Of a stretch of 35,496 nucleotides of DNA, positions 1-34,571 are shown one piece after another (the stretch's first letter is position 1; every line of letters begins with the position of its first letter). The DNA is from Planctomycetota bacterium (GTDB lineage: Bacteria > Planctomycetota > UBA8108 > UBA1146), in contig DQQH01000222.1 of NCBI GenBank assembly GCA_015664425.1, forward strand, positions 1-35,496, read 5' to 3'. The position numbers and the translations under genes were made by a program. Under the pieces are notes generated by a model. It saw only the letters and a program-made list of their open reading frames with translations, had not been told where the DNA came from and made no database searches.

Positions 1-438
1 CCAGAAGTTGCCGCTCGAATCGATGCGCGGGCCGAAAGCGTACTCGTGGTAGTTCCCCGAGATGGTCCAACTGTCGCAGATCGTCTCCAGTTCATCGCTC
101 TGGCCATCGCCATCGCTGTCGCGCAGACGGCTCAACTCGCCACGTTGGGCGGTGTACAGCCAGCCATCTCTCCACAGCAGCCCGAGCGGTTCCTGCAGCC
201 CATCGGCCCACAGGCTGAACTCCGGCTCGGGGCCGTAGGCGGCCTCGATGCGCCAGATGTCGCCACGGCGGGTGCTGGCGTAGATGACCCCTTTTTCAGG
301 AGCTGCGATGCCGCCGACCTCGAGCACGATGCCGGCCGGAATCTTGACGGTGGTGATCTCGTAGTAGTCCGATTCCTTCGGCACGTCCGCCACGGGAACG
401 ACGTTGCCCAGCAGCAGGGTCAGGATCATGGTATTCAC
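1..438 (-). CDS. Secreted beta-propeller / PQQ- or NHL-like (membrane-bound dehydrogenase-type) protein, truncated at the window edge
   Basis: Minus-strand reading from GTG 438 / ATG 429: (MNT)MILTLLLGNVVPVADVPKESDYYEITTVKIPAGIVLEVGGIAAPEKGVIYASTRRGDIWRIEAAYGPEPEFSLWADGLQEPLGL..., with no stop to the window edge. AGGAGGTGATCC lies just upstream of the GTG. A GTGA overlap joins it to the upstream cytochrome gene. Confidence 0.7.
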   Translation of the reverse strand, partial: MNTMILTLLLGNVVPVADVPKESDYYEITTVKIPAGIVLEVGGIAAPEKGVIYASTRRGDIWRIEAAYGPEPEFSLWADGLQEPLGLLWRDGWLYTAQRGELSRLRDSDGDGQSDELETICDSWTISGNYHEYAFGPRIDSSGNFW

Positions 439-3143
439 CACTGGATCACCTCCTCGATCGTTGCACCCCCGGCGGGGACGGTGACTCGAAGTTCCTGCTC
501 GCCATCGACAGTCAGCAGCCGTGTAGGAGCACCATCGACGGTGATGAAGAGCTGATCTCCCACCTGCCAGCGATGGTTTCCGGCCGGCCGGATCGTCTTG
601 TCACGGGCGAGCCGCAGCTGCACCCCGTCAGAATTCTCGTTGCCTCTGATGTCGAAGACCCGCAGGAGGTTGGTGCCCTCGGCGGTCATCTGCGGAATCG
701 ACACCTCGGAAATCTCCACGCTGCCCTTCTGGTAGCGGAAGATGGGACGGCGCGCCTCATCTCGGCGGTAGCCCTTGAAACGCCAGCCGCCTTCGCGGGC
801 ATCGCCCAGGGGCCAGATGGCATCGGGTCGCTCGAGCAGGGCGACCGCCATTCCACCTGGCATCGAGATGACCGAGGTACCGGCGGGAACCTCGAGAGCG
901 CCGGCGCGCCCCTGCCAGGTGCCCTGGGCGTTGATGAAATCGCCGCGCCAGGCCAGGGCCATGCGGATGTTTTCGACGTCGAAAGCGATGGAGACCCGTT
1001 CGGGATAACCGACCGCGATCGTCCGGGCGCTGTGGCCGCGCAGGAAGATCCCTGTCATCGCCGGTTCTTCGGCTGACGGCACGACGTCGAAACTTCCGCG
1101 GTCGACGATCAGTCCCTTGGGCAGTGGCGCGGATTCACCCCCTGAGAGGTAGGTCCAGGTGGCATCGATCTGGCGAGTCGGATCGCCGCCGAGGAGGTCG
1201 GGGAAGAACTCGATTCCCTCGGCCCAGTAGGCGGGCATCCGCGTTCCCTGGCGCTTTGACTGCGGATCGAACATGTACTGGCGGTACCACCCGGGTTGCA
1301 GCCGGTCGGTGGTGTCGGCGAGGTCGAGAGCCGGTTCGCCGAGTGAGTGATGGCCGGAAAAATTGTGGCAGTCGATGCAGCGGAAGCCGTCGGTGCCGAC
1401 CAGTTGATGGCCTGCTCGCTGCGATTCGATGGTGAAGGTCGGGCCGACGTTGTCATGAGCATCGGCACCCGCTGCGATGAAGAGCTGGGCGAGTTCTTCG
1501 GCGCGTTCGTCGCCGTAGTGGGGCATGCGCGTCACCATGTAGGGACGCACACTCTCGCCATTAGCGATCACCTTTTTCAGCCAGTCAGGCTTCAGCTTGC
1601 CACCGACGCCCGTCAACGGCGGCGGCAATCGGCCCTCATCACCGAGTTCAGCGGTGCCGGTGAAGAGGCGGGCATGTTCGGCATCGGGGCCCCATCTTCC
1701 ATCGAGGGAGTGGCAGGAGGTGCAGCCGATGTCGCCGACGCGCAGGGAAACCCCTTCAGCGGGTGTCGGCATCGCTGTCGGCTCCGATGCCAGGCGCAGA
1801 ACCTCGATGATGGCGTCCTTCTCCTCGGCGTTGAAACGGTAGGCGGGAACGGCAATCGCCGGGTTCTCGGAGAGACAACCGGTTCGCGCCGGTTTGAGCT
1901 CGGCGAGGGGAGTTCTGGCGATTCCGGGTCCATCGTGGCAACTGATGCAATTGAGCATCTGGTAGAGGACTTTCCCTCTCTTGACCCGGTCAGGATCGAG
2001 AGAAAAGGGTTCTTCCGGCGGACGCAGCACTCGTGTTACCGATCGCATCGCCGAGGGGGGGACCTCGCCGTAGGTCCCAGATCCTGCGACCTGCCAGCGG
2101 AACTCGAGGTGCTCGCCACCCCCGAACTCGTACATCCGGACCTCGAATGGGTGCCAGCCCGCCTCCAGGGTCGCCTTGCCCTTCTTCTCGGAGGGAGCGT
2201 GATCGCCATCGTTTTCGATCACCTCGACGCCATCGATCCACAGCCGCGAGCCATCATCGGACCACAGGCCAAAGGTGTGCTCACCGCTGACTGGAATCTC
2301 GAGTTCTCCGGTGAAGCGCAGACCGAAGTATTCGTTGCGGGTGCGGGGATCGACCGAGATCTTGCTGGCGGTGCCACTCTCGACCGGAGTGTGATCATCG
2401 AAATCGAGAACGCTGTGCACCTTCAACTCGTAGGCCTCGTAGTGAACTCCCGATGCGACATCCATCAGTGGTTTGCCATCGGCTCCGTTGCCCTGGTCGC
2501 GCAGCAGCCAGGCGGCGATCGCCTTCGCCTCGGTCACTTCCAGACCGAGCGCCGGCATTCTTCCCGATCGATGGACCTCCGTCGCCGTCATCAGGCGCTG
2601 GGACAGCCCTGCGAGAGTTGTTCGTCGAGACTGGTCGACGATGGCGGGCTCATCGGGTTCGTGACAGGCAGCGCACCCGATCGACTGGTAGAGCGCTTCC
2701 CCCTCCTTGAACCAGGCACCGTCGAGAGCGGCAGCGGAGGTGTCGATGGGACCCCCGCGAGAGACGAGGAATTGGACCAGGTCGGTGATGCTCTCCCTGC
2801 CACCTTGAACATCGAAGCCGTGAAGAATGTGGGGCATCCGTGATTGGGGATCGACGGCGTAGGGGTTGCTGAGCCGGCGCTCGATGAAAGAGGGCAGGAG
2901 CCGTGACCCGACGGTGGTCAGGGCCGGTGCCTCGAGGGGCCGCAGCCACGCTGCCACCTCGGGGCTTGGAGCCCGGTGGCAATTGAGGCAGCCGTGGTCT
3001 CGAACCAGCCGGATCCCCGCATCGAGGCCGGCATCGAGGCCGGGGTAGGCCCAGCTGGAAACGGTCGCCCGCCCCTGGCCTGTCGGCAGGAGCCACAGGC
3101 CCAGGGCCAGCATCGCAATCAGGCTGAAACTGGATCCACGCAC
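435..3143 (-). CDS. Multiheme c-type cytochrome with PA14-like domain
   Basis: 902 aa, N-terminal signal peptide, five CxxCH motifs (CLNCH, CAACH, CISCH, CTSCH, CIDCH). PA14-like segment 'GLRFTGELEIPVSGEHTFGLWSDDGSRLWIDGVEVIENDGDH'. Confidence 0.9.
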   Translation of the reverse strand: MRGSSFSLIAMLALGLWLLPTGQGRATVSSWAYPGLDAGLDAGIRLVRDHGCLNCHRAPSPEVAAWLRPLEAPALTTVGSRLLPSFIERRLSNPYAVDPQSRMPHILHGFDVQGGRESITDLVQFLVSRGGPIDTSAAALDGAWFKEGEALYQSIGCAACHEPDEPAIVDQSRRTTLAGLSQRLMTATEVHRSGRMPALGLEVTEAKAIAAWLLRDQGNGADGKPLMDVASGVHYEAYELKVHSVLDFDDHTPVESGTASKISVDPRTRNEYFGLRFTGELEIPVSGEHTFGLWSDDGSRLWIDGVEVIENDGDHAPSEKKGKATLEAGWHPFEVRMYEFGGGEHLEFRWQVAGSGTYGEVPPSAMRSVTRVLRPPEEPFSLDPDRVKRGKVLYQMLNCISCHDGPGIARTPLAELKPARTGCLSENPAIAVPAYRFNAEEKDAIIEVLRLASEPTAMPTPAEGVSLRVGDIGCTSCHSLDGRWGPDAEHARLFTGTAELGDEGRLPPPLTGVGGKLKPDWLKKVIANGESVRPYMVTRMPHYGDERAEELAQLFIAAGADAHDNVGPTFTIESQRAGHQLVGTDGFRCIDCHNFSGHHSLGEPALDLADTTDRLQPGWYRQYMFDPQSKRQGTRMPAYWAEGIEFFPDLLGGDPTRQIDATWTYLSGGESAPLPKGLIVDRGSFDVVPSAEEPAMTGIFLRGHSARTIAVGYPERVSIAFDVENIRMALAWRGDFINAQGTWQGRAGALEVPAGTSVISMPGGMAVALLERPDAIWPLGDAREGGWRFKGYRRDEARRPIFRYQKGSVEISEVSIPQMTAEGTNLLRVFDIRGNENSDGVQLRLARDKTIRPAGNHRWQVGDQLFITVDGAPTRLLTVDGEQELRVTVPAGGATIEEVIQW

Positions 3144-6928: not shown

Positions 6929-7270
6929 CAGGTCTTCCTCGACGCGAGTGGTGGGAAAACACGAGCCTCTCTGCTGAGGGCACCGTCAACCCAGTATCAT
7001 CCTACCCACGATCCCTGAAGCGACAAGGCGCCCTTTTTTCCCGGGGGAGGGTGGAGCGACAACCATCGAGGCCTTCCCCGGAACCGCTGCAAACGTCGTC
7101 CAGCGAGGCGGTAGCAGCAACTCACGATTCCTTGCGCAGGAGCCACTTGCGGATATCATCGACGATGAACCGGGTTCATCTTCTACCCTCGAAACTGTAG
7201 TGGTTCCTTCTGGCAGCGGATGCCCCGAATACCTGCTCCTGGAAACACCAACGAGGGAGATATTGCCGTA

Positions 7271-9163
7271 ATGTCGTTCGTCGCCCGCTGCCTTCTTCTT
7301 CCCATCCTCGCAATGGCTCTGCCCCTTTCGGCGCAGATTCAGCCGTTCACTGAAGAAGCTGTCAGTCGAGGCATCGTCGGCATCACATACTTCGGTCATT
7401 TCACCTTGCCGTTCGGAGCTGGAATTGCCTTCAACGACCTCGATGGTGATGGCGATGCAGACTGTGTCCTGACCAGCGAAGGGATCGGGAGGATCCGCCT
7501 CTTCGAGAATGACGGCACAGGGAATTTCATCGACCGAACCCTCGTCACCGATTGGCCCCCAGGTTACCTCTACAGTGGGGTTTCGGTTGCGGACTACGAC
7601 GGCGATGGCGACCTTGACTTGTACATCAGTGCCTGGGATCTACCCAATCTGTTGATGCGAAACACCGGTGATTTTCTCTTCTTCGATGTCGGCCAAGAGG
7701 CTGGGGTCGACGATTCAGGCCAGGCCACCAGTTCGGTGTGGGGCGATTACGATGGCGATGGCTGGCTCGACCTCTATGTCTGCAATCGTACCGCCAGCGA
7801 GGATAACCTCGAAAACACCACCCCCAATCGCCTCTTCCACAACGAAGGAAATGGGACCTTTACCGAGGTCTCCGAGCAATTCGGCGTCGACGACCCATGG
7901 AAGACCATCGAGGCGGCCTTCTTCGATCACGACCTCGATGGGGATCTCGACCTCTACGTCTCCAATGACAAGGGGAACGGCATTGGCACCAACGAGAACC
8001 GACTCTTCGAGAACCGGGCCGGAATCTTGTCGGAAATCAGCGAGGAATCAGGTTCCAACGTCCACATCGATTCGATGGGTCTGGACTTCACCGATTTTGA
8101 TCGAGATGGTGACTTCGATCTTTACGTAACCAACGTCCCTTCCAGCGGGAACCGATACATGATGAACAATAACGATGGAACATATTCCCTCGAGGATGTG
8201 AGCCACGGATTATTCGGTGGAGATAGCGGCTGGGCTTGCCTCTTCTGGGATTTCGATAACAACGGTTGGTCAGACCTCTTTGTCGCCAACAACATTGCCA
8301 ACAACTATTTGTTCTCCAACAACGGAGTGTTCCCCGTCACGGACGTTGCCGTTGAATACAATATTCACGATGCCGGATATCAGGCACCTGGAACTTTCCC
8401 AGGAAACACCTACTGCGTTGCAAAAGCTGATATCGACCTCGATGGAGACCTCGACCTCCTGGTCCAGACCTGGAACGAACCCCTGGCTCTCTACATCAAT
8501 CACGAGGGTGAGTTGAGGAACTGGTTGCGTCTGAAACTAAGGCAGCCAGGGCCAAATATTTTCAGCGTCGGTGCGCTCGTTCAGATCCAACACGGCATTG
8601 AATACCAGAGACGCATGCTGAAAGCCGGGCACGGCATGAAAAGCTCTTCCGAAATGGTCCTCCACTTCGGCCTCGATGATGTTGCCACCGTTGATCGAAT
8701 TACCGTTCGCTGGCCAGATGCGGAAATCTCTGTGCTGGAAAACATCAGTGCCAATCAGGTGCTGGTCATCGATCGAGACGTGACCGGAGCTCAACTCGAC
8801 TGCGATCGCAATTTGATCCCCGACTCCGAACAGATCGCGGCCGACCCCGGTCTCGACGCAAACGGTGACGGCTTGATCGATGGTTGCTCCTCCGACTTCA
8901 TCCGCGGGGACGTCAACCTTGACGGGGCCGTCGACCTGAGCGATGCGATCAGCGCCCTATCGCATCTCTTCGCCTCCGTCGAAGCGGCTTGTTACGATTC
9001 CTGCGATGCAAATGACGATGGGGCCATAGACATCTCCGATCCGATCACCCTTCTCGGCTACCTCTTTGGCGGCGACGGGCCATTGCCACCGCCCTTCAAT
9101 TCCTGCGGGGGAGATCCGACGGTTGACTCTCAGAGGTGTAGCACACTGACCAGCTGCTCCTAG
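7271..9163 (+). CDS. FG-GAP/VCBS repeat protein with ASPIC/UnbV-like domain and C-terminal EF-hand/dockerin-like module
   Basis: Repeated D(L/Y)DGDGDxD motifs. ASPIC/UnbV-like 'NWLRLKLRQPGPNIFSVGALVQIQHGIEYQRRMLKAGHGMKSSSEMVLHFGLDDVATVDRITVRWPDA'. C-terminus 'RGDVNLDGAVDLSDAISALSHLF...CDANDDGAIDISDPITLLGYLFGGDGPLPPPFNSCGGDPTVDSQRC'. Confidence 0.85.
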   Translation: MSFVARCLLLPILAMALPLSAQIQPFTEEAVSRGIVGITYFGHFTLPFGAGIAFNDLDGDGDADCVLTSEGIGRIRLFENDGTGNFIDRTLVTDWPPGYLYSGVSVADYDGDGDLDLYISAWDLPNLLMRNTGDFLFFDVGQEAGVDDSGQATSSVWGDYDGDGWLDLYVCNRTASEDNLENTTPNRLFHNEGNGTFTEVSEQFGVDDPWKTIEAAFFDHDLDGDLDLYVSNDKGNGIGTNENRLFENRAGILSEISEESGSNVHIDSMGLDFTDFDRDGDFDLYVTNVPSSGNRYMMNNNDGTYSLEDVSHGLFGGDSGWACLFWDFDNNGWSDLFVANNIANNYLFSNNGVFPVTDVAVEYNIHDAGYQAPGTFPGNTYCVAKADIDLDGDLDLLVQTWNEPLALYINHEGELRNWLRLKLRQPGPNIFSVGALVQIQHGIEYQRRMLKAGHGMKSSSEMVLHFGLDDVATVDRITVRWPDAEISVLENISANQVLVIDRDVTGAQLDCDRNLIPDSEQIAADPGLDANGDGLIDGCSSDFIRGDVNLDGAVDLSDAISALSHLFASVEAACYDSCDANDDGAIDISDPITLLGYLFGGDGPLPPPFNSCGGDPTVDSQRCSTLTSCS

Positions 9164-15933: not shown

Positions 15934-17664
15934 TCAGGGGCAATCGATCAGAACGGTGCCACCGAGGGTCTCGATATCGTTTCCTCCGCCGCTGAAGGCG
16001 CCCCGATTCGTCACCACGATATCAGGGTCGCCATTGCCATCGAGATCGCCGAGGGCAGCGCCTGTGGCATCGGAGCCGACCTCGGTCTCGCTGACGTTGA
16101 AGAAGGTGGCGGTGCCATCGTTGATGAGGACATGCACCGTGCCGCTGGTTCCAGAGGAATTGATGTTGTTGAGGACGAAGGCATCGAGATCCCCGTCTCC
16201 GTCCGGATCCCCGAGGCCGACGAACTGCGGGGAGATCCCAACGGTGAGGGTGGAATTAATGGAGAACACGCCGGCGCCATCGTTGAGCACAATGATGGCA
16301 CTGCCGTTGGCCCCGGGGGCGCTGGCGCCGACGATGATGGCATCGATGTCGCCATCGCCATCGATATCACCGACCGAGAGATCCTCCACCAGTGAGAAGA
16401 TGGGAGGCGTCGACGTGATCGCAAAGGCCCCCATCCCATCGCCGTTCTCGAGCACCACGAGAATTCCGATGGAACCAGGATTGACCTGCACCACCACCAG
16501 GGCGTCGCTGTCACCATCGCCATCGATGTCAGCTGAACTTATCGCTCTCGGAATCCCGGGAAGTCCCGCCTGAGCATCAACCGAGAAATTCCCGGATCCG
16601 TCGTTGAGCAGCGAGAAAAACCTCGGAGCGTTGACTGTACCTTGACCCTGGCAAACGAGGGCATCGAGATCGCTGTCGCCATCGACGTCGACGAGGGTGA
16701 TCGCCTCGACAGGGGCATCGCCGAAGGGGATGGGGTCCATGGAGCCCAACAGGGTGTACCCACCGCTGCCGTCGTTGATGTAGACCTCCAGGAGCCCCGT
16801 TCCATCGCTGGCATCATCGCCCTTGAGAAGATCGAGATCACCATCGCCATCGACATCGCCGAGCGCCAGTGAGATCCCCGAGGCGGCAATGGTGCTTCCG
16901 ATGGTGAGTGCGCCGCTGGTGTCATTGATCAGGATGCTGGTCTGGACTCCTGCGCCTCCAGGTTCGAGGCTGAGCACCACGGCGTCGAGGTCCAGATCGC
17001 CATCGACATCGCCGATCGCCACCGCCTCGGAGCCGAGACCGGTGGAGATACCGCCATTGATGGATAGGTTCACCTCCAGTTTGCACAGCTGGAGGATCGG
17101 GGTGTTGACCACGAGGATGCCGTTGATCATGAAACCGAGGGGCATTGCCAGCTGCTGGACATCGCCTGCCGGGGAGATCAACAGAACCTGCAACACGATC
17201 TGGAAGAGCCCCGCCGGCACTTCGAAAGTGAAGAAACCATTGGAATCGGCGGTCGCTATCGGGCCGAAGATGCTGAGAGTAACAACCGCTCCCACCGCCG
17301 CGTTGAGGTCGAAGTCGAGGATGGTGCCACTGACGACACAGGTTCCATCGAAAACGAGTGGATTGGATCCGAACTGGTTCTCGATACTATCGTTGAATCC
17401 ATCATTGTCATCATCGACATCGACGAAGTTGCAATCGCCGTCTCCATCGCTGTCGACCGGCACCGAGTTGAAATCGGACGGGTTGGTGCCGCAGAGGGCT
17501 TCCTCCGAATCGGTCCAACCGTCTCCATCGCTGTCGAGGTTGAAGGTGAAGGGGCTCCCTTCTCCACAGCCGGAAATCACCGTCAGCAGGACAAGCAAGC
17601 TCCAGACTCCACCCCATCGAAAGAAAAGAACTCGCTGTGTTTCCTTCGGCATCGCTCTCCTCAT
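15934..17664 (-). CDS. Secreted FG-GAP/VCBS repeat protein
   Basis: 576 aa, signal peptide, many 'GDVDGDGDLD' repeats. Start codon overlaps the upstream decarboxylase stop (ATGA, 17661-17664). Confidence 0.85.
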   Translation of the reverse strand: MRRAMPKETQRVLFFRWGGVWSLLVLLTVISGCGEGSPFTFNLDSDGDGWTDSEEALCGTNPSDFNSVPVDSDGDGDCNFVDVDDDNDGFNDSIENQFGSNPLVFDGTCVVSGTILDFDLNAAVGAVVTLSIFGPIATADSNGFFTFEVPAGLFQIVLQVLLISPAGDVQQLAMPLGFMINGILVVNTPILQLCKLEVNLSINGGISTGLGSEAVAIGDVDGDLDLDAVVLSLEPGGAGVQTSILINDTSGALTIGSTIAASGISLALGDVDGDGDLDLLKGDDASDGTGLLEVYINDGSGGYTLLGSMDPIPFGDAPVEAITLVDVDGDSDLDALVCQGQGTVNAPRFFSLLNDGSGNFSVDAQAGLPGIPRAISSADIDGDGDSDALVVVQVNPGSIGILVVLENGDGMGAFAITSTPPIFSLVEDLSVGDIDGDGDIDAIIVGASAPGANGSAIIVLNDGAGVFSINSTLTVGISPQFVGLGDPDGDGDLDAFVLNNINSSGTSGTVHVLINDGTATFFNVSETEVGSDATGAALGDLDGNGDPDIVVTNRGAFSGGGNDIETLGGTVLIDCP

Positions 17665-21243: not shown

Positions 21244-21437
21244 TCTCCTCTACCGACGACAGCCCCGGGGAATCCGGACGGGTGGGCCCCCGGGTCACGC
21301 GGCGGTGACAGTTGGGCAAGAACGATTGGAAAAGTCAATTCAGAGGATATTTTCACCGCTTACCATCGTTCGGACCAGCGGGTAGATTGAACCCAGAGAA
21401 GCTGGCTGCCGACGACCAGCAGAGAAAGGAACTGGCG

Positions 21438-22691
21438 ATGAAATTTGCGCTTACAGCTGCGTTGATGGCCTCGCTCACTCTTATTCTCGGCTCTTTTCTC
21501 GCCGCCGACAACGCCCAGGACGCCTCCAACCAGCTGGAAAAACCGATCCTTCTCGAGGCCTCGGGAAAGCCGATCGACACCGACATCGGACATGCCGCTC
21601 CGTATCTGTGTGACTGGGATTCCGATGGCGACCGCGACCTGCTCGTCGGCCAGTTCGGCGATGGCAAGCTGAGGATCTACACCAACGTCGGCACCGACAA
21701 GAAACCGCGCTACGAGGGCCCCACCTGGTTCGAAGCCGGTGGTGAGATCGGCACCATCCCTTCCGGCTGATGCATCGGCTTCGGTCCGCAGTTGGCGGAC
21801 CTCGACGGCGATGGCATCGACGACATGATCAGCGGCTCCTACTGGCCCGGGGACATCTACATCTTCGAAGGCACCAGGACCGGCTTTGCCAAGGGCCACC
21901 CGATGAAGGACGCCTCGGGAAGAGACCTCAACGCTGGACCTCCCTGGGCCGACGACGAAAGACCCGAACTCGAGAGTCTCGCCTCCGCTCCGCGCGCCCA
22001 CGACTGGGATGACGACGGTGATCTCGACCTGCTGGTCGGCAACATCACCGGCACCGTGATCCTCATCACCAACGAGGGCAGCCCAAGAAAGCCCTCTTTC
22101 TCGACCAAGAGGCGCTCCCTCGAGGCGAACGGCGATCTCATCGAGGTTCCCGATGGTGATTCCGGCCCGGTCATCGCCGACTGGAACCGGGATGGGCGCG
22201 ATGACCTCATCGTCGGCGCCGGCGATGGCTCCGTCTGGTTCTACCGCAACAAGAGCAAGACCGGCGAGGAGCCTGTCTACGACAAGGGGATCGCTCTTCT
22301 CGAGGCTCCCGGCTTCGACTGGGACAATTTGCCCAACGAGGGTAGCGAACCGACCGACCGCGGGACTCGTGCCAAGGTCGATGTCAGCGATATCGACGGC
22401 GATGGCTGGCTCGACCTGCTCGTCGGTGGGATCCAGTGGATGCATCAACCGCCACCCGATCTCGATGCCGAGCAGACGGCGCTGCGCGACCGACTTCAGG
22501 CGGAAAAAAAGAAGATCGGAAGCGACCTCGACGAAGCGGTGGAAAAACATGGCAAGTACGACTCGGGCATCCCCGAGATCAAAGCCATCCTCGTGCGCAC
22601 GAAGAACAATTACATCGAACTGGAGCCTCTCGTCGAGGGCGACATCCCCCACGGGTTCGTCTGGTACTGCCGACGGATTCCGCCGGTCTAG
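21438..22691 (+). CDS. FG-GAP/VCBS repeat secreted protein with in-frame TGA at 21768-21770 (codon 111); candidate selenoprotein, 417 aa if read through
   Basis: MKFALTAALMASLTLILGSFLAADNAQD (signal peptide)...GTIPSG-[TGA]-CIGFGPQLADLDGDGIDDMISGSYWPGDIYIFEG...RRIPPV*. Both sides are in the same frame, with domain continuity across the TGA. RBS-like GAAAGGA sits upstream of ATG 21438. Confidence 0.75.
21783..21801 (+). promoter_or_regulatory. Candidate bacterial SECIS-like hairpin downstream of the in-frame TGA
   Basis: GGTCCGC (21783-21789) - AGTTG loop (21790-21794) - GCGGACC (21795-21801): perfect 7-bp stem. Loop starts 19 nt after the TGA, and the second loop base is G. A further outer pairing CATCG (21773-21777)/CGATG (21809-21813) is possible. 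Confidence 0.55.
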
Positions 22692-23887
22692 CTGCGCGTT
22701 GCCTCTTTCCCCCGCTCGTCCGATCGATAACACCAGAAGATCCAGGCGAACACCCCCGCGACAATTCCGCCGAGGTGAGCGGTTCCGCTGACCATGCTGC
22801 TTCCCTGGATCTCCCGGTAGGCGAGGAAAAGCTGAAGGACGACCCAGACGATGAACAGGGATCGAGCCTTGGCGGTGAGAACTATCGGCCTGAAGTAGTA
22901 GAGGAAGACCATCCGCAGCCGCCGGCGGGGATAGGCGAGGGCATAATAGGCCATCACTCCCGAGATTCCGCCGCTGGCGCCGATTCCAGGGACCGCCGAG
23001 GCGGGGTTGGAGAGGTAGCGCAGCAGCGTCGCGACGAGGGTCGCAGCCAGCAGCAGCAGGAGAAAACGCCGCCAGCCCAGTTCGCTCTCGACGTCATCGC
23101 CGGTCAGCCAGAGGAAGTAGAGATTTCCAAAGAGGTGCACCCAGCCGGCGTGAAGAAAAAACGAGGTGAAGATGGTCGCTCCGCCGAATCGGCTCCAGTC
23201 GGCGGGAACAAACCCCCACACCTCGAAAAAGCCAATCACCTGGGGGATCAGAGGTGGTATTGCTTCGCGCCCGAAGCGCTGCTCGGGACTGAAGGAGAGC
23301 AAGACCGCCGTCGAGACGAAGGCGACCAGCAGCATCACGCTCCAGGTCACCCAGGGGATCACGAGCCATTTTTCTTTCTTGTCTTCCAGCGGCATCCCCT
23401 GGAGAACCAGCGCCTTGAGAAGGTCCTTCCCCGGCTCCTCCGAGTACTTGAGTCCACTGTCGCTGGCTTCCTTGCGCTTCTTCCTCGAGGACAACTCGAA
23501 GCGTCCGAGAGCTTCGCGCGCTTCCATCGACAGACGCTCTTCCTCTGGCGGCATCTCTTTCGCTGGGGCGTCCTCGAGTTCTCCTGGATCGAGCCAGATC
23601 AGCTGGCACGACGGGCACACATCGATCTCTGTGGGTTGTTGCCCCTCCCCGCCTGCAACCACCACCGATCTCGTTTCTCCCAGGCAAGAAGGGCAAGGAA
23701 CTCCGCTGCCACTGCCTCCAGAGCGCGCCCGGTTCCACAGGTCATTGGCGAAATCGCGGTCGATAAGCCGGCGCAACAAGCCGATGGTGACTGCGACTCC
23801 CTGACATCCGGGGCACCGGTAGCAGACCATTCCGTCCTTGAGCTTACGCTCGAGAATCTGGTGATCTCGCGGGCAGGTGAGCAGCAT
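22688..23887 (-). CDS. Rhomboid-family intramembrane serine protease with two N-terminal TFIIB-type zinc ribbons
   Basis: 'LTCPRDHQILERKLKDGMVCYRCPGCQG' and 'VPCPSCLGETRSVVV...IDVCPSCQLIWLDPGELE'. Rhomboid 'HLFGNLYFLWLTGDDVESELG', 'GIGASGGISGVMAYYAL', 'GTAHLGGIVAGV'. Confidence 0.9.
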   Translation of the reverse strand: MLLTCPRDHQILERKLKDGMVCYRCPGCQGVAVTIGLLRRLIDRDFANDLWNRARSGGSGSGVPCPSCLGETRSVVVAGGEGQQPTEIDVCPSCQLIWLDPGELEDAPAKEMPPEEERLSMEAREALGRFELSSRKKRKEASDSGLKYSEEPGKDLLKALVLQGMPLEDKKEKWLVIPWVTWSVMLLVAFVSTAVLLSFSPEQRFGREAIPPLIPQVIGFFEVWGFVPADWSRFGGATIFTSFFLHAGWVHLFGNLYFLWLTGDDVESELGWRRFLLLLLAATLVATLLRYLSNPASAVPGIGASGGISGVMAYYALAYPRRRLRMVFLYYFRPIVLTAKARSLFIVWVVLQLFLAYREIQGSSMVSGTAHLGGIVAGVFAWIFWCYRSDERGKEATRS

Positions 23888-33065: not shown

Positions 33066-34571
33066 CTATGGACAGACGGAGAAGGTCATACATGTGAGCG
33101 AATCAGCGCTGGGATCTTCTCCGCAATTGAAATTGGGCGGCGGCGGTGCTGGTCCGCCGTCGAAGAGGTACGACAGCGTGCCGATGGGGTCGGCGATGTT
33201 GAAGCTGCCGTCATCGTTGAAATCGCAAGCATCGATACAGAGCGGAGTTCCCCCCATCATGAAGAGAATCTGAAGGCCGCTGACCGCATCGGCGACGTTG
33301 TTTGAACCATCGATGTTGCAATCACCCCTCTTGAAATCGACCCCTCCACCCCCTCCTCCACCGACGTCTGTTTCGTTGTGATAGGGGGTGACGGTGTTGA
33401 CGGGCCCATTGGCGGCAATCAGATCGGGCCTGCCATCGAGGTCGATATCGGCAGTATTGAGGGTGTAGCAGTCCTGCGAGGGAATGGCGCTATCGGCGGT
33501 GAAGCCGCCGATGCCATCGCCCTTGAAGATCACGATGTTGGTGGCCCCCTGCGCCAGTGTGTTTCCTGCCACTGCCACATCGACGTTGCCGTCGAGATCA
33601 AAATCGGCGGTGGTGGAATTGGCGGAAAGAACCCCGCCTCCAGGATAAGCAGTCGACATTCCAAAATTGCCGCTGCCATCGTTGATCCAAACCCGGATTC
33701 CCCCGATCTGCTCATCGGGAATGACGATGTCGAGATAGCCATCGTTGTTGAAGTCCGCCAGATCGATGCTCCACATCGAAAAGGATCCCGGCACCGAAAG
33801 ATCCTCTGACAGAACAAATTCACCGGGGCTAATCGCCAGGTAGACGTTGACCCCGATGAACCCCCCGTTCATGTGCGGAATCACCAGATCGATCAGACCA
33901 TCAAGGTCGAGGTCTCCCACCGCTGCAGTGGCGGAATATGCCCCCACCGTAATGGTGTCGTCCGGAGAGAACTGGCCGGTGCCATCTCCACGGGCGTAGT
34001 TGAAGGAGAGGTTCCACGAGCCCGGAAGCAGCAGGTCGAGAATCCCATCGCCGCTGTAGTCGGCGGCGATCAGATCGAATGAACCTGAGCCAGGGAGGGA
34101 AACCATGTTGGTCGTGTAATCGAAGGCGCCGTTGCCGAGCATGATGACAACGTTGCCACTGAAGACATCGCCGATGAGGATGTCCTTGATGCCGTCGAGG
34201 TTAACATCGCCGATCTCGAGTCCCCACGGCTGACCCTGGGCGGTGAGGGGATAGATGATCGGCATCGCCGAAAACACCCCCGGCGCGGTACCCGGATAGA
34301 TATAGAGCAACTTGGTTCCCGCCACCGGAACGTTGAGAGCGATCAGATCGACAAAGCCATCGCCATCGAGATCGCTCGCTTCAGACTCGGTGACACACAC
34401 CGCCGACATCGCCGTGCCTGGAACAAGCACGATGGTTGCACCCGCCTCCGAAACCAGACCGAGAACAGACAAACAGAACACGAAACCACGCACACCATCG
34501 GAAAGAGACAAAGCCCTCCCCCTCCCTGCGGGCAACCCGTGAATCGTGAAATCTGAGCCCAGAAGTTGCAC
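33066..34571 (-). CDS. FG-GAP/VCBS repeat secreted protein with C-terminal EF-hand/dockerin-like module
   Basis: 501 aa; 'DLDGDGFVD' repeats. C-terminus 'KRGDCNIDGSNNVADAVSGLQILFMMGGTPLCIDACDFNDDGSFNIADPIGTLSYLFDGGPAPPPPNFNCGEDPSADSLTCMTFSVCP*'. Confidence 0.85.
   Translation of the reverse strand: MQLLGSDFTIHGLPAGRGRALSLSDGVRGFVFCLSVLGLVSEAGATIVLVPGTAMSAVCVTESEASDLDGDGFVDLIALNVPVAGTKLLYIYPGTAPGVFSAMPIIYPLTAQGQPWGLEIGDVNLDGIKDILIGDVFSGNVVIMLGNGAFDYTTNMVSLPGSGSFDLIAADYSGDGILDLLLPGSWNLSFNYARGDGTGQFSPDDTITVGAYSATAAVGDLDLDGLIDLVIPHMNGGFIGVNVYLAISPGEFVLSEDLSVPGSFSMWSIDLADFNNDGYLDIVIPDEQIGGIRVWINDGSGNFGMSTAYPGGGVLSANSTTADFDLDGNVDVAVAGNTLAQGATNIVIFKGDGIGGFTADSAIPSQDCYTLNTADIDLDGRPDLIAANGPVNTVTPYHNETDVGGGGGGGVDFKRGDCNIDGSNNVADAVSGLQILFMMGGTPLCIDACDFNDDGSFNIADPIGTLSYLFDGGPAPPPPNFNCGEDPSADSLTCMTFSVCP

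Follow-up and report, generated by a model that had tools for sequence, protein, structure and literature searches.

The gene at positions 21,438 to 22,691 of the window, which is the whole 35,496-nucleotide stretch of planctomycete DNA analyzed here, very probably belongs to an undescribed selenoprotein family, in which the in-frame TGA at codon 111 of this gene encodes selenocysteine (Sec or U). As judged from sequence comparison, the family is widespread, is predicted to consist of secreted beta-propeller proteins, is almost certainly Sec-containing and has no entry in the current bacterial selenoprotein catalogue.

The gene and its surroundings

The preliminary description of this DNA had reported an in-frame TGA at codon 111 in a frame that is otherwise open, and this is borne out. 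In frame 21438-22691 of the forward strand, the TGA at 21768-21770 is the sole stop ahead of the terminal TAG and lies in the motif SG-U-C-IGFGPQ; 110 codons precede it and 306 follow, which greatly exceeds what chance would give. The protein read through the TGA matches the family profile over residues 1-414 with 457 bits. The features of the gene, all on the forward strand, are:

21426..21430, forward: Shine-Dalgarno-like AAGGA, 7 nt 5' of the ATG, by direct sequence reading
21438..22691, forward: CDS of the candidate selenoprotein, 417 residues with TGA read as Sec at codon 111; stop codon TAG at 22689-22691
21438..21506, forward: signal-peptide-like N-terminal hydrophobic segment of about 23 residues, MKFALTAALMASLTLILGSFLAA
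21612..21638, forward: Asp-rich (DxDxDG) blade loop 1, with conserved D59, D63 and D67
21768..21770, forward: TGA codon 111, putatively read as Sec (TGA in 117/125 orthologues, Cys in 8)
21771..21773, forward: Cys112, the vicinal partner in the U-C pair (Cys in 116/117 Sec forms and 8/8 Cys forms)
21784..21800, forward: bSECIS-like hairpin, stem 21784-21789/21795-21800 (GUCCGC/GCGGAC) and loop AGUUG at 21790-21794, from folding and covariation
21798..21824, forward: Asp-rich blade loop 2, immediately after the U-C loop, with D121, D125 and D129
22002..22028, forward: Asp-rich blade loop 3, with D189, D193 and D197
22179..22205, forward: Asp-rich blade loop 4, with D248, D252 and D256
22389..22415, forward: Asp-rich blade loop 5, with D318, D322 and D326
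22467..22631, forward: insert forming a helical hairpin within the final blade (residues 344-398), from the AlphaFold2 model

The N-terminal segment is likely to be a signal peptide, and the AlphaFold2 model places a helix at residues 2-29 that overlaps it. Antisense to the gene is an open frame of 457 codons (21360-22733, reverse strand), which GC-rich codon usage would probably account for. The gene is flanked in the window by those for an MFS transporter and a rhomboid protease. Three more FG-GAP proteins are encoded in the window (7220-9163, 15934-17664 and 33066-34571), one of which has an UnbV_ASPIC domain; none of the three is a strong match to the Sec-family profile in the own genome. 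A peptide-pattern scan of genome contigs returned four generic FG-GAP relatives only. At 435-3143 on the reverse strand, the window also encodes a 902-residue protein with several cytochrome c-like matches, of which SoxX is just over the NCBIfam cut-off.

Predicted propeller and proposed role of the Sec-Cys pair

Pfam FG-GAP repeats (PF13517/PF01839) are found in the protein over their gathering scores (70 bits versus 26.9 and 31.8 versus 22.1). The AlphaFold2 model built with the family alignment (pLDDT of 92.8 and pTM of 0.89) is mostly beta with five Asp motifs; judging from the number of motifs, the propeller would have five blades, with the helical hairpin in the last. By analogy with the FG-GAP family, the Asp-rich loops may bind Ca2+. 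The U-C pair, which besides Asp, Gly and one Pro is alone invariant in an alignment of 37 sequences, is found six residues ahead of the first strand of blade 2. Propeller loops of this kind often face the central channel or carry ligand sites. Foldseek returned only weak propeller matches (ITFG2, phytase and GH43) with TM-scores < 0.5, so that structure assigned no function, and the weak profile matches are integrin alpha-IIb, ITFG2 and CRTAC1. The PDB relatives are generic propellers, with no homologue of known function among them.

We propose that Sec would be inserted by the standard bacterial route, in which SelB with Sec-tRNA(Sec) would bind the hairpin (stem from about 13 nt past UGA111). 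The 417-residue product would then be secreted or periplasmic and is predicted to adopt an FG-GAP beta-propeller fold that has five Asp-rich loops for Ca2+; Sec111-Cys112 would sit in the loop that leads into the first strand of blade 2. There the pair would probably cycle between selenolate/thiol and a vicinal selenenylsulfide for extracytoplasmic redox catalysis, or it may serve as a ligand for soft metals or electrophiles. Given Sec insertion, we lean slightly toward a redox-active vicinal Sec-Cys pair, by analogy. Whether the proteins form a widespread family of extracytoplasmic beta-propeller selenoenzymes with a vicinal Sec-Cys active site, whose chemistry would be unlike that of the known, mostly thioredoxin-fold, selenoproteins, is in our estimate an even proposition.

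A variant of the redox proposal and its chief rival, which we regard as tentative and as having roughly one chance in three, also has Sec inserted, with the U-C pair serving as a ligand for soft metals (Hg, Cu or As) or electrophiles, or as a structural vicinal linkage, and not in redox chemistry. The scaffold, which is predicted to be a binding propeller and not a thioredoxin fold, would suit this role, and several catalogued CU-type selenoproteins, such as MbdU, SaoL and HgcA, are metal- or organomercurial-related, whereas most characterized selenoproteins are oxidoreductases (PMC13188914). The genes beside the family also give this variant no backing: clustering of 672 neighboring ORFs, to which product names were not systematically assigned, revealed no conserved operon partner that would hint at a substrate and no gene family that recurs at a fixed place. 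A sigma-factor-like ORF is found in 7 loci, at varying distance from the gene.

Conservation of the TGA codon and its probable decoding

A search of 118 relatives yielded homologues with exactly one in-frame TGA each, and in 30/30 of the first homologue loci examined the TGA is at the identical aligned position and is followed by Cys. A profile search then extended this to 392 genomes of the phylum, and 127 distinct profile matches were read at the TGA column. Two of them, L017 (Ser) and L154 (Asn), were rejected as orthologues because they are FG-GAP proteins with multiple repeats. Among the remaining 125 orthologues, the column holds TGA in 117 and TGC or TGT in 8, with no TAA, TAG or codon for any residue other than Cys. 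Cys follows directly in 116/117 Sec forms and in each of the 8 Cys ('CC') forms. In the exceptional Sec form, L217 (G178:C58), Arg (CGC) replaces the partner Cys (TGC) and the hairpin sequence is retained.

The CC pair that the preliminary description expected in relatives is found in 8 homologues, and the genomes of six of these lack selA. The Cys forms are full-length ORFs without interruption. Six belong to one genus; another, in G206, occurs alongside selA; and a Fuerstiella (Planctomycetota) assembly holds the CC homologue L216, whose placement on the tree is unsure and whose branch is long. On a quick maximum-likelihood tree, CC forms are found in three places, each forced by well supported branches, which amounts to at least three independent switches between Sec and Cys. 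On the same tree, the window protein groups with those of G041, G085, G312 and G206, apart from its own taxonomic family; it may be an old paralogue or have arrived by horizontal transfer. Sec-form paralogues, in tandem or as multiple copies per genome, include L162 (G175), L160, L161 and L215 (G386), with four in G386, and at least two subfamilies can be distinguished by the motifs NW-U-C-IGM and xG-U-C-IGF.

Shortly downstream of the TGA, the window gene can form a hairpin that the preliminary description does not mention, GUCCGC-AGUUG-GCGGAC, whose loop is 19 nt after the TGA, which falls inside the bSECIS range given below, and whose stem is extendable by G21783-C21801; the folding energy is -23.2 kcal/mol over 51 nt. 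The published bSECIS model specifies a loop of 3-9 nt with G in the first two loop positions followed by G or U, at 16-37 nt from the UGA and with an MFE <= -7.5 (PMC13188914). As applied here in a slightly looser form (spacing from 14 nt and a stem of at least 4 bp), the model is satisfied in 37/44 genes, versus 13% with synonymous codons resampled and 9% elsewhere in the same genes. The loops of the family hairpin are of the AGUU or AGGU type, and G followed by G or U within the first two loop positions is found in 105/109. In the alignment, 94.4% of the stem cells are paired, versus 30-46% with the partner slid, and 13 stem cells show double changes. The covariation score and the pairing were matched by 0/500 shuffles, a control that does not remove relatedness, which the slid control keeps. 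Columns 21-29 (26 AU and 11 GC) are an example in which the synonymous third base of a Pro codon covaries with the second base of an Ala/Val codon three codons on, so that the pair is retained. No hairpin was predicted in the 7 Cys homologues folded.

In the genome from which the window derives (G000; 2.22 Mb, 293 contigs, 82% complete), the search for the Sec machinery advised by the preliminary description succeeded for selB, which is full length (356 bits), and not for selA, selD and selC (tRNA-Sec). The tRNA-Sec-like matches (48 bits) in this assembly were rejected, as ARAGORN calls them mostly tRNA-Ser and none tRNA-Sec. In the same-family genomes G009 and G001, selA, selD and tRNA-Sec(TCA) form a compact cluster of some 3 kb (L114:8824-11669; L116:8925-11607), so that one missing stretch would remove all three; we attribute their absence from the own assembly to this clustering together with its 82% completeness. 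The selD genes of these clusters have an in-frame TGA themselves, in SCAGUAAK or SCAGUASK. Full-length selA is found in 89/92 genomes with a TGA form, and the three exceptions are incomplete. Among the 118 relatives, full selA is found in 34/35 Sec-form genomes versus 53/83 others (Fisher p = 6e-5, which is indicative only because the genomes are related), and in the second genome set in 55/57 Sec-form genomes, the two without it being 77% complete. In the genus with six CC forms, selA is absent from six genomes that are 99-100% complete and contain only paralogues of 41-49 bits. In several genomes, such as G039 and G062, two or three genes score above the family cut-off for selB. Sec is presumably inserted in the cell from which the window derives, too.

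That the TGA is instead read as Trp, Gly or Cys through an altered genetic code or a suppressor tRNA, with no selenium involved, is highly improbable: the lack of selA, selC and selD in the own assembly would fit such a reading, but the family has the SECIS-like hairpin with compensatory changes, its TGA genes occur almost only alongside selA, the substitute residue is always Cys and the same-family genomes have a genuine tRNA-Sec with anticodon TCA. Even less credible is a broken gene, whether a decaying pseudogene in which the TGA is a true stop or a pair of genes, the second of them re-initiated at the internal TTG 21792. An ORF of 299 residues does start at this TTG, and the missing selA, selC and selD of the host would agree with a true stop. 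Against both versions, the frame, the residues and purifying selection carry on past the TGA in all relatives, the column never holds TAA or TAG, the Cys forms are uninterrupted and a re-initiated product would be without the signal peptide and the first blade. Decay after the TGA in close relatives, which the preliminary description considered damaging to its proposal, was looked for; dN/dS in close pairs is instead 0.07-0.29 downstream of the TGA and 0.02-0.12 upstream, which indicates that purifying selection also acts after the TGA, if somewhat more weakly than before it. The least probable reading by our assessment is that TGC/TGT or TGG was turned into TGA by an error of sequencing or assembly, as might be suspected from the fragmentation of the assembly into 293 contigs and the existence of Cys homologues, because the TGA recurs in 117 distinct genes, which come from dozens of independent assemblies, the single-contig genomes G367 and G386 among them.

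Relation to known selenoproteins and FG-GAP proteins

The prokaryotic selenoprotein catalogue of 2026 lists 119 families in its Table 1, none of which is an FG-GAP, VCBS or propeller member or has a plain U-C pair (PMC13188914), and no model of NCBIfam 20.0 scores over its cut-off for the window protein. With the near invariance of the TGA and the next Cys, these results support the preliminary proposal of an undescribed FG-GAP selenoprotein, and none of the outcomes that the preliminary description named as refuting it was encountered. The main text of an earlier study assigns full Sec machinery and SECIS-based selenoprotein predictions to Planctomycetes P1 and P2, and the candidates that it names include fdhA and fmdB (PMC4807772). 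Among the open-access papers searched, none has Sec together with FG-GAP or VCBS, and an earlier mention in a subscription paper or in the supplement of PMC4807772 is conceivable. We ourselves know of no Sec-containing FG-GAP protein.

With these proteins, the bacterial selenoproteome would gain a large family built on a new scaffold. Standard-code translation of each of the 117 verified Sec-form genes stops at the TGA, and ordinary gene callers will therefore split or truncate them. The switches between Sec and Cys, one of which is in the genus without selA, offer a natural experiment on the reasons for retaining selenium, and a U-C pair within a propeller would be a new active-site architecture that can be tested.

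In the propeller enzyme PQQ-dependent methanol dehydrogenase, a vicinal Cys-Cys pair is found at the central active site; its likeness to the window protein is an analogy only, and no sequence relation between the two was found. With the bacterial selenoproteins decoded by SelB and bSECIS, the new family shares the in-frame UGA, the hairpin 16-37 nt downstream, the G[G/U] at the loop start, the Cys homologues and probably the selA/B/C/D genes in hosts. The nearest motifs in the catalogue are GxUC and CU, which are found in 2Fe-2S/CopZ-type and other metal-linked proteins (PMC13188914). With FG-GAP repeat proteins (PF13517 and PF01839), such as integrin alpha propellers, ITFG2 and CRTAC1, the family shares the repeats, and it differs from them in its nearly invariant U-C (or CC) pair, its about five Asp-rich motifs and its helical-hairpin insert.
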